64,000 bases of DNA. Origin: Kineococcus rubinsiae. Lineage in GTDB: Bacteria > Actinomycetota > Actinomycetes > Actinomycetales > Kineococcaceae. Position 1 is the first letter of the stretch. Each line of letters opens with the position of its first letter. Shown in pieces: positions 28,909 through 30,795 of the stretch. The notes below the pieces were generated by a model. The model saw nothing but the letters and a program-made list of their open reading frames with translations, was not told the DNA's origin and ran no database searches. Position numbers and translations under genes: made by a program. The stretch spans positions 1 through 64,000 of the forward strand of contig NZ_VWPY01000002.1 of assembly GCF_011839805.1 (NCBI RefSeq). Direction: 5' to 3'.

Positions 28909-29238
28909 ATGACCCGCGAGCCCGCCCTGACGACCCCCGACGGCCGCTACCTCGTCGTGCGGGGCCGGTTGTGGCGCTGCTCGGACCCGGGGCTGGACCC
29001 GGAGCACCGCCAGGAGCTCGTCGAGCGGCTCATGACCGCGCGCCGCGACAAGCGGACCGCGATGGCCGCCGACGACGCGGCGGCCCGGGAGGACGCGCGG
29101 GCCCGCGTCGACCAGGCCAAGCACGAGCTCGGCGAGCGCGGGCCGGTGTGGTGGGACGACGGCGCCCCCGACCTGACGCGCCACCTCGCGCGGAACACCG
29201 ACTACGCCGACTGGTACGCCACGACGACGCAGGGGTAG
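28909..29238 (+). CDS. Small conserved hypothetical protein
   Basis: The 109-residue product is charged and soluble, with 'TTPDGRYLVVRGRLWRCSDPGLDPEHRQELVERLMTARR' and an arginine/alanine-rich helix ('DKRTAMAADDAAAREDARARVDQAKHELGERGPVWWDDGAPDLTRH', in parts). I recall near-identical short proteins annotated only as hypothetical in many Proteobacteria and Actinobacteria; no function is established. ATG at 28909 is preceded by a GAGGAT that could be a -10 or a weak Shine-Dalgarno. Its end is 10 nt from the convergent membrane-protein gene. Confidence 0.72.
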   Translation: MTREPALTTPDGRYLVVRGRLWRCSDPGLDPEHRQELVERLMTARRDKRTAMAADDAAAREDARARVDQAKHELGERGPVWWDDGAPDLTRHLARNTDYADWYATTTQG

Positions 29239-29248
29239 GGCCCGCGGC

Positions 29249-30214
29249 TCAGCCCCGGGCGGCCGCGCGGTCCCGCCGCGCAGAGCGGGGGAGCGTCCGC
29301 GCGCGCCACGCCTGCGGCAGCCGCTCCAGCGGCGCGAAGGCCAGCAGGCACACCACCGTGGGCAGGAAGTGGATGCCGATGGTCAGGTACGTCCCGAGGT
29401 GGAACACCAGCCAGAACCCCACGGCCGCGGCGAGCGCCCGCCCGCGCAGCCACAGCATCAGCGGGCTGAGGAACTCCGCGACCAGCACGCCCCACTGCAT
29501 GACCACGACCAGGTGCGGCACGGCGAGCAGCGCGTCCGTCAGGGTGCTGCCCCGCCTCGAGAAGGCCCACGTGAAGATCGCGCCGTTCGCCCAGTCCCAG
29601 CCGCCGAAGCGCATCTTGGCCAGGGCCGCGAGGAAGTAGGTGCAGACCGCGGCGACCTGCACGCAGCGCACGGCCCAGCCCGCGGCCTCGCTGCGCAGGA
29701 ACGGGTCCCGGGCCGCGCCGACCGTCGGGAGCACCAGCAGCGCGACCAGCAGGGCCACGTGGTCGTGGTCGATCTTGGAGTAGCTGAAGCCGTTGCTGAT
29801 CCACTCCAGGTACGCGGCTGCGCAGACCCAGCCCGCCGCCCGCGGCAGCCGCCCCAGCGCCGCGACCACGGCGCTGAGCACGAGGACGACCAGCACGACG
29901 CGCACCGACGTCTCCGTCGGGGCGGGCAGGTCCAGCAGGCGGCGCAGCAGGATCGGGCGGTACAGCACGGCCGGCACGTCGCCGTGCCCGAGCGGCCACG
30001 TCGTGATGTGCAGGGCGTCGAGGACCACGAACGCGTAGAGCACGAACCGCAGGACGGCGACGCGCCCCAGCGCGACGGGCGGCGCCCACCACGAGCGCCA
30101 CGCGCCCGCCCTCCCCGTCCCTCCCGCGGTCGTCCCTCCCGCGGTCGTCCCTCCCGCGGTCGTCCCTCCCGCGGTCGTCCCGCCGAGGGCCGGTCGGCGC
30201 GTCGTCGAGCTCAC
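29249..30214 (-). CDS. HTTM-like polytopic membrane protein with GGTTA repeats
   Basis: The 321-residue protein has an N-terminal low-complexity tail of four GGTTA-type repeats (residues 11-31), then about six or seven membrane segments. Recognisable parts are 'RFVLYAFVVLDALHITTWPLGHGDVPAVLYRP', 'SYSKIDHDHVALLVALLVLP', 'TYFLAALAKMRFGGWDWANGAIFTWAF' and 'FWLVFHLGTYLTIGIHFLPTVVCLLAF'. These fit the HTTM (horizontally transferred transmembrane; vitamin K-dependent carboxylase-like) family. GTG at 30214 overlaps the upstream gene stop (GTGA). The substrate is unknown. Confidence 0.72.
   Translation of the reverse strand: MSSTTRRPALGGTTAGGTTAGGTTAGGTTAGGTGRAGAWRSWWAPPVALGRVAVLRFVLYAFVVLDALHITTWPLGHGDVPAVLYRPILLRRLLDLPAPTETSVRVVLVVLVLSAVVAALGRLPRAAGWVCAAAYLEWISNGFSYSKIDHDHVALLVALLVLPTVGAARDPFLRSEAAGWAVRCVQVAAVCTYFLAALAKMRFGGWDWANGAIFTWAFSRRGSTLTDALLAVPHLVVVMQWGVLVAEFLSPLMLWLRGRALAAAVGFWLVFHLGTYLTIGIHFLPTVVCLLAFAPLERLPQAWRARTLPRSARRDRAAARG
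30121..30180. repeat. Four perfect 15-bp tandem repeats
   Basis: Unit CTCCCGCGGTCGTCC is repeated exactly four times (30121, 30136, 30151, 30166). It lies inside the HTTM-like gene, and because 15 is a multiple of 3 it encodes repeated Gly-Gly-Thr-Thr-Ala. Confidence 0.95.
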
Positions 30215-30705
30215 CGGCAGCACCCCAGCGGGTGCCGCGGGTCCGCGACGTCCCACGCGGCCAGCTCGACGTCGCGGGGCGCGCCGGTCAGCTCGCCGCC
30301 CACGAGCCGGGTGACGTCCTGGTGGACCTCGAGGTGGGCGTAGCGGGCGCGGCCCGGGTGCCGCTGCGCGTACGCGGCGGCGACGGCCTCCAGCAGCGCC
30401 GGGTCGTCGACGAAGCGCTGCAGCTGCCCCTCGACCTCGGCGCGCCGCAGCCCGACGCCGCCGGGAGTCAGGGGCACCACCGTGCGGACACCGCCCGTCG
30501 TCACCGCCTCGATCCGGGTGGAGCGGACCTCGCCGTCGAGGTGGACCGCGAAGGCGTACTGCGACATGGGCGCGAACGGCCAGCGGTCGTCGTTGCCCTG
30601 CACGGTGCCGAGCACCAGCAGCCCCAGGAAGGCGACGGCGGCGACGCTGCGCCAGGCCAGGCCCGCGCGGGGCAGGCGGCGGATCCCCGCGGCGGGCTCG
30701 AGCAC
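30211..30705 (-). CDS. Membrane-anchored partner protein of the HTTM-like gene
   Basis: The 164-residue product has one N-terminal membrane segment ('AWRSVAAVAFLGLLVLGTVQG', about 17-37) followed by an extracytoplasmic domain with 'NDDRWPFAPMSQYAFAVHLDGEVRSTRIEAVTTGG', 'YAQRHPGRARYAHLEVHQDVTRL', and a C-terminal 'GCCR'. I recognise no named family; the 'WPFxPMSQY' motif is reminiscent of partner proteins found beside HTTM genes. GTG at 30705 is supported by a -10 TAGGCT (30717-30712) exactly 6 nt upstream. The GTGA overlap with the HTTM-like gene indicates a two-gene unit. Confidence 0.65.
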   Translation of the reverse strand: MLEPAAGIRRLPRAGLAWRSVAAVAFLGLLVLGTVQGNDDRWPFAPMSQYAFAVHLDGEVRSTRIEAVTTGGVRTVVPLTPGGVGLRRAEVEGQLQRFVDDPALLEAVAAAYAQRHPGRARYAHLEVHQDVTRLVGGELTGAPRDVELAAWDVADPRHPLGCCR

Positions 30706-30711
30706 CTCGGC

Positions 30712-30717
30712 AGCCTA
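30712..30717 (-). promoter_or_regulatory. -10 hexamer TAGGCT, leaderless arrangement
   Basis: On the minus strand TAGGCT ends 6 nt before the GTG at 30705. A TAGGGT (30732-30737) on the plus strand close by is a likely -10 for pgsA, so this gap is a divergent promoter. Confidence 0.5.
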
Positions 30718-30795
30718 GGGGCGCGACCCCCTAGGGTGAGGGCGCCTCGGCGGTGACCGCCGGGCCCCGCCCGCCCCCGCACAGAAGACGGACCG

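Follow-up and report, generated by a model that had tools for sequence, protein, structure and literature searches.

The vitamin-K-dependent gamma-carboxylase (VKGC), GGCX, activates clotting factors. In Bacillus, SdpA and SdpB mature a toxin. The genes sdpABC produce a secreted toxin and have a paralogous set, yitPOM (PMC6818787). The term HTTM domain has also been used in work on human GGCX (PMC5343777), and a homologue of glutamyl carboxylase has been mentioned for Leptospira (PMC4555120). The human enzyme uses K218 as the base that takes a proton from vitamin K hydroquinone; its N159, H160 and Y395 coordinate Glu, and H160, W223, F286, F294, F299 and M401 line the naphthoquinone (PMC12589487). 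Three residues, S398, M401 and M402, belong to the linker that connects its membrane and lumenal domains (PMC12589487). Another setting is that of the linaridin clusters, where a study of corynaridin, in its passage on the HTTM protein and the accompanying hydrolase, calls their mechanism unclear (PMC9927463).

The locus analyzed here lies in a 64,000-nucleotide stretch of Kineococcus rubinsiae DNA (contig NZ_VWPY01000002.1, positions 1 to 64,000; hereafter the window). It consists of two overlapping genes on the minus strand. The first (positions 30705 to 30211; GTG at 30705, TGA at 30211) encodes a protein of 164 aa, the partner, and the second (positions 30214 to 29249; GTG at 30214, TGA at 29249) encodes a multi-pass protein of 321 aa that is HTTM-like, with a predicted GGCX TM1–8 fold. 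A first-pass annotation of the DNA had placed both open reading frames correctly and had noted the GTGA junction between them; its two-gene layout stands, with the order corrected so that the partner gene precedes the HTTM-like gene. The reading we prefer, with a probability of about 0.5, is that the pair is one membrane enzyme of the VKGC/GGCX type split in two genes, in which the partner would complete the active site and the cofactor would probably be menaquinol.

Organization and Coupling of the Gene Pair

The partner stop and the HTTM-like start share the four bases GTGA (30211 to 30214, minus strand). A scan of public genome contigs yielded 155 relatives. The best 80 loci, titled as actinobacterial and skewed toward Actinomadura (22) and Kribbella (15), were retained. 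These loci hold 84 HTTM-like copies, one of which lies at the start of the available DNA, and the partner is found directly upstream of all 83 copies that have upstream DNA. When the start codon nearest the partner stop is taken for each pair, the overlap is 4 bases in 70 pairs, 16 bases in 7 and 1 base in 3, and in the remaining 3 the start lies 76 bases downstream. Because a start codon giving the 4-base overlap is present in 70/83 homologous pairs from the best 80 of 155 relatives, the GTGA coupling goes beyond chance. The beginning of the HTTM-like coding region contains a perfect tandem repeat of 15 bp in 4.4 copies (30116 to 30181, minus strand), which is absent from the N-termini of three near relatives (L003, L004 and L006).

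The same picture emerges from 296 sampled genomes of the class. HTTM-like genes occur in 49 genomes and partner genes in 47, all of them within the 49, and by their listed coordinates 52/52 partner copies adjoin an HTTM-like copy. In one of the two partnerless genomes (G047) the HTTM-like copy is cut by the contig start, and in the other (G025) it is a distant paralogue with a divergent upstream partner of its own. The partner is thus an obligate, overlapping and anchored companion of the HTTM-like gene, and the pairing that the first-pass annotation had read from a single locus recurs at every homologue with upstream DNA in the kept loci and in 47 of the 49 HTTM-like-bearing genomes of the class sample. 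Within the same taxonomic family (12 genomes, including that of the window), HTTM-like genes are present in nine and partners in eight. The ninth HTTM-like gene, in a congener (L170; G004:C6:51339-51787), has internal stops and is accompanied by only a remnant of the partner; from this broken copy, the pair looks dispensable in some species. Searches of both proteins against plasmids gave no match.

The whole pair is duplicated in four loci (L039, L044, L046 and L059). In the three from Kineosporia (L039, L044 and L046), the two pairs differ by 57–61% in the HTTM-like protein and by 70–76% in the partner, and each half clusters with the equivalent half from the other species, so that the halves are never swapped. 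At L059 the two halves point to different nearest relatives, and this duplicated pair therefore adds nothing to the evidence for co-inheritance. Distances between partners and between HTTM-like proteins correlate at 0.72 over 71 pairs, a figure that ignores shared species history and that would also be compatible with two co-transcribed membrane proteins having unrelated roles. The unfailing adjacency, the 4-base overlap in 70 of the 83 pairs and the duplication of the pair as a unit make such independence highly improbable.

The two genes had also been ascribed to one leaderless-type promoter, and this is supported by the relatives. A −10-like box, TAGGCT (30712 to 30717, minus strand), precedes the partner GTG by 6 nt, and a TANNNT box is found 5–8 nt before a candidate partner start in 45/83 loci of the best 80 of 155 relatives; single-base shuffling of the upstream DNA, with identical candidate starts kept, predicts 3.4. 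The counts support a leaderless promoter as a probable property of the whole family and not of the window alone. Between the partner gene and a divergent PIP synthase gene lies an inverted repeat with 11-nt arms of 91% identity (30711 to 30738), with the cores CCTAGGGG/CCCCTAGG; it overlaps the likely −10 box and could be an operator.

Fold and Family Relations of the HTTM-Like Protein

The HTTM-like alignment comprises 71 of 85 sequences, including that of the window, after 14 near-duplicates were dropped. The AlphaFold2 model built from these 71 rows has a mean pLDDT of 91.4 and a pTM of 0.85. In a Foldseek search of the PDB with this model, ranks 1–16 are all GGCX (best E 8.8e-5; probability 1.00 for ranks 1–15). 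VIA aligns the model with GGCX residues 43–327 at Z 17.8 (263 residues, rmsd 3.6), compared with Z 8.5 for the best unrelated row. On the strength of the model, the HTTM-like protein clearly has the GGCX TM1–8 fold, and the HTTM assignment made from the sequence withstands structure prediction.

Profile–profile comparison with single-chain VKGC homologues also gives a significant match (E 6.8e-10, 245 columns, score 74.2, compared with at most 28.1 in 60 column shuffles). The VKGC set was collected through the lumenal domain PF22777, which is found in 11/296 genomes of the phylum; L122 was omitted, having no full open reading frame, and L119, whose HTTM slice was mis-cut to 35 residues and kept in the profile, is absent from the residue alignment. 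PF22777 itself has no match in the window proteins and none in the genome from which the window comes.

Simpler searches by sequence detect less. The Pfam HTTM family (PF05090) matches 20/71 homologues at E≤0.01, a threshold on E and not the curated cut-off, with a best value of 1.2e-11. The window protein itself matches no Pfam family, PF05090 included, and a PDB sequence search with it returns no GGCX (best E 0.12); both results count against a split carboxylase-type enzyme. PDB searches with the profiles of both families likewise return no GGCX. What came up, dTor_9x57R (E 5.3e-6 as the sum of nine short repeats), PPL3 and the cowpea mosaic virus coat, was rejected as consisting of repeat chains or unrelated ones.

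The only NCBIfam match of the window HTTM-like protein is to SdpB (TIGR04033), and it is weak (E 4.6e-4; 19.9 bits, with the cut-off of 178.4 not reached). At the profile level, the likeness to SdpB is strong, with E 5.1e-11 and a score of 82.9 compared with at most 22.5 in 60 shuffles. These matches, together with a shared gene order in which a small one-helix protein comes first and an HTTM-type protein second, favor a maturation pair of the SdpA–SdpB type, which would help to cleave, fold or export a peptide or protein that leaves the cell, with neither quinol chemistry nor carboxylation. Several observations speak against such a pair. The SdpA family is present in only 1/296 genomes of the phylum, and no SdpC-like gene was recognized among the conserved neighbors read by eye. 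The partner and SdpA profiles align at E 0.13, a result equaled by 5/60 shuffles, and SdpB differs at a key residue of the presumed active site (see below). We regard a maturation pair as unlikely, although it is the strongest of the competing explanations. By sequence, comparisons of SdpA with the partner and with the VKGC lumenal domain failed shuffle or reversal controls, and the SdpA model TIGR04034 has no match at E≤0.1 among the 71 partners and none in the window's own genome.

SdpA family genes were found in 12/199 genomes of one genus (that of G029; L124–L135), with an HTTM-type gene recognized in 12/12 loci; at L124, a gene for a secreted-looking protein, read as SdpC-like by eye, lies just upstream. 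The genome that carries the window also encodes a second, distant HTTM-type protein (L001, 1486-2559; G000:C32), which has an SdpB-like GHDGADQ site and a GLKK...W motif.

Conserved Residues and the Presumed Active Site

The spacing of the human GGCX residues (K218–W223; F286, N290, F294 and F299; N159–H160) fits the motifs KLNxDW, FHxxNxxxFxxxxFP and LNH of bacterial VKGC proteins. In the window protein, the counterparts are encoded on the minus strand by H150–D151–H152 (29759 to 29767; conserved in 71, 71 and 67 of 71 rows), with H150 aligned to GGCX His160; by K200 (29615 to 29617; 71/71), aligned to the catalytic base Lys218; by W208 (29591 to 29593; 71/71), aligned to Trp223; and by F271–H272 (29399 to 29404; 71/71 each), with F271 aligned to Phe286. 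Two alignment methods place H150, K200, W208 and F271 opposite the corresponding VKGC residues. The correspondence is incomplete, and to this extent counts against the preferred reading: Phe294 and Phe299, which hold the naphthoquinone in GGCX, are not conserved and are I279 and L284 in the window. Across the alignment, position 279 is L, I or M (T in two rows) and position 284 is mostly L (63/71).

The same columns discriminate between the two known relatives. SdpB keeps the Lys and the Trp but has Gly-Asp at the His site in 12/12 rows, where the window family and VKGC have His; at the site that handles Glu, the window family is therefore nearer to VKGC than SdpB is. As the K...W and FH residues are kept in SdpB too, they are no proof of carboxylation.

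The Anchored Partner

The partner sequence has one predicted helix (residues 13–36), followed by DDRWPFAPMSQYAF, an outer domain and the end HPLGCCR. From the model, the transmembrane helix (30598 to 30669, minus strand) would occupy a position equivalent to GGCX TM9, and the WPFAPMSQY motif (residues 42–50; 30556 to 30582, minus strand) the position of the GGCX TMD–PBD linker. The outer domain spans residues 52–154 (30244 to 30552, minus strand) and has weak matches to GGCX. We infer that the partner is a single-pass anchor in N-in orientation carrying an outer domain, in agreement with the first-pass annotation, which had described an anchored protein with a WPFxPMSQY motif. In the partner alignment (71 of 84 sequences, including that of the window, 13 near-duplicates having been dropped), P43 is conserved in 71/71 rows, Q49 in 66/71 and Y/F50 in 71/71, and R19, near the helix start, in 68/71.

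The Cys-Cys near the C-terminus (30217 to 30222, minus strand) had been listed as a feature of the system as well. It is present in the window, but it is a Kineococcus trait found in only 3/83 relatives, and a second type of partner within Kineococcus lacks it; it is thus not part of the system. Thiol chemistry by this end was set aside on the same count.

Structural evidence on the partner is weaker than on the HTTM-like protein. Its model has a mean pLDDT of 89.8, but the motif stretch, residues 41–50, averages 62 and is of low confidence, and a Foldseek search of the PDB gives nothing convincing (best E 0.063); both points count against the partner being the missing part of a carboxylase. 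Scattered weak matches, and no family, were found in Pfam and NCBIfam. When the Foldseek candidates were compared by VIA, rows 1–13 of 996 chains were all GGCX, at Z 3.4–4.5, and the next row had Z 3.2. The best match (Z 4.5, 81 residues, rmsd 4.1, 5% identity) may reflect a common arrangement. Nine of the 13 rows place partner residues 52/58–154 on GGCX residues from about 396 to 491, after TM9 and starting in the linker; the other four align a different, longer range (GGCX 271–491) at rmsd 8.4–8.8. Profile–profile comparison with the VKGC lumenal domains failed its control (E 0.076, with 2/60 shuffles equally good). Adding divergent partners to the profile gave a result equaled by 3/40 shuffles, and with the divergent partners alone only 14 helix columns align. 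Since GGCX is also the match of the neighboring gene, and since helix, link, motif and outer domain come in the right order, the modeled resemblance of the partner to the lumenal part of GGCX is suggestive.

Wider Distribution in the Phylum

A search of the phylum with the HTTM-like profile found matches in 25/296 genomes. The standard partner lies just upstream in 9/9 loci with strong matches (L142–L149 and L168). Seventeen loci encode divergent HTTM proteins. In 11 of them an upstream gene on the same strand specifies a one-helix protein bearing a motif after the helix, of the pattern [WYF]P[FLMI]xx[WFYMLP]x[MLIQ][YF], and in six none was found; a motif protein on the opposite strand was found in none of the 17. 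The pattern was drawn from seven of the 11 cases, the new ones being L161, L165 and L169, plus L158, which duplicates L157. A profile of nine divergent partners (L158 and L161 omitted) aligns with the window partner over 130 columns (E 2.4e-4, hhalign probability 43.7), with a score of 31.6 compared with at most 19.6 in 40 shuffles and with the WP motifs in register. In the 16 divergent HTTM proteins that were aligned, the His is kept in 13 and the Lys in 14. As divergent HTTM proteins have homologous upstream partners, the anchored partner is a habit of this HTTM branch and not of one genus.

Genomic Neighbors and Quinone Recycling

In 39/80 loci (best 80 of 155), at least one of the genes that flank the window pair (thrS, HIT, pgsA and acyltransferase) is kept within the available DNA. 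In the 15 Kribbella loci the pair lies with glnA, and there too the partner immediately precedes the HTTM-like gene. A functional link with the phosphatidylinositol-mannoside genes was set aside: the pair runs on the opposite strand and is found in other settings elsewhere. Between HIT and the pair, the window has a small convergent gene (28909 to 29238; 109 aa, LTTPDGRYLVVRGRLWRC...), with a weak match to PF09720 (E 0.016) that is below acceptance. No substrate gene was recognized beside the pairs among the conserved-neighbor clusters read by eye, which counts against the split-enzyme reading.

A gene for a thiol oxidoreductase of the DCC type (DGDCxFC) lies beside the pair in 36/80 loci (e.g., L032, L034 and L041), in several genomic settings and under 11/30 genus-level labels, all raw counts; the motif was used for counting because the DCC profile was contaminated by an out-of-frame HIT sequence. 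This neighbor lends some weight to a quinone/thiol redox relay, in which the HTTM-like protein would move electrons between the quinone pool and the adjacent DCC oxidoreductase without modifying any substrate. Such a relay appears improbable, less likely than a maturation pair: the DCC gene is on the opposite strand in 36/36 cases, the motif is absent in 44/80 loci, the window's own genome has no DCC1-like match, and no cysteine is found among the invariant or near-invariant positions of either protein in the 71-row alignments. Two VKOR genes are present in the window's own genome.

A Possible Split Enzyme

Menaquinol is the usual actinobacterial quinone. In the split enzyme that we favor, the HTTM-like protein would form an eight-helix core with K200, H150 and W208, and the partner would stand in for three elements of GGCX: TM9, the linker embedded in the membrane and the first lobe on the lumenal side. 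The WPFxPMSQY motif would close the active site against H150 and K200, and K200 would deprotonate menaquinol. While the outer domain of the partner holds an exported substrate, the resulting base could then activate a site on it, acidic or otherwise, so that the substrate would be carboxylated or modified in a related way outside the membrane. VKOR-type proteins might regenerate the quinone, as might the neighboring DCC thiol oxidoreductase in many relatives.

More tentatively, and with the odds against it, the pairs may represent a large, so far overlooked, Actinomycetota-wide class of two-subunit VKGC-type enzymes, composed of an eight-helix catalytic HTTM subunit and a separately encoded one that joins TM9 to a lid, whose [WY]P[FL]-type motif would close off the active site. 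Menaquinol would drive the modification of exported proteins in this class, and the single-chain animal GGCX could have arisen by fusion, or the reverse could have taken place. If the split enzyme is real, quinol-driven modification of proteins outside the membrane would extend across a major bacterial class, and the pair would offer a small and tractable model of GGCX in two subunits, so that the lumenal half could simply be omitted to test what it does. VKGC, SdpAB and possibly the linaridin HTTM proteins would then join one mechanistic group.

Comparison with Known Systems

The first-pass annotation had called the substrate and chemistry of such bacterial pairs undescribed. For this family the statement holds insofar as full-text literature searches, whose coverage mostly excludes subscription papers, found no study of an actinobacterial pair of partner and HTTM-like protein. 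For the layout it is too strong, because Bacillus SdpA–SdpB, in which a small protein goes with one of HTTM type, has already been described. The actinobacterial pair could be a hitherto unstudied form of the carboxylase in two parts.

The linaridin clusters (e.g., corynaridin crdG and crdE) share with the window pair an HTTM-type protein, there set in an actinobacterial peptide-modification cluster, but the partner there is an alpha/beta hydrolase and the cluster context differs (PMC9927463). SdpA–SdpB and YitP–YitO share with the window pair the gene order, with a small one-helix protein ahead of one of HTTM type, and their HTTM halves are clearly homologous to that of the window, whereas SdpB lacks the His and SdpA has no detectable homology to the partner. 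GGCX and VKGC differ in being single chains, whereas the window system has two genes with the anchor and outer domain encoded first; the outer domain of the window partner is small, about 100 residues, without a PF22777 match, and Phe294 and Phe299 are replaced in the window family. What the carboxylases and the window pair have in common is the TM1–8 fold, the equivalents of Lys218, His160, Trp223 and Phe286, and an anchor with an outer domain beside the eight-helix core.
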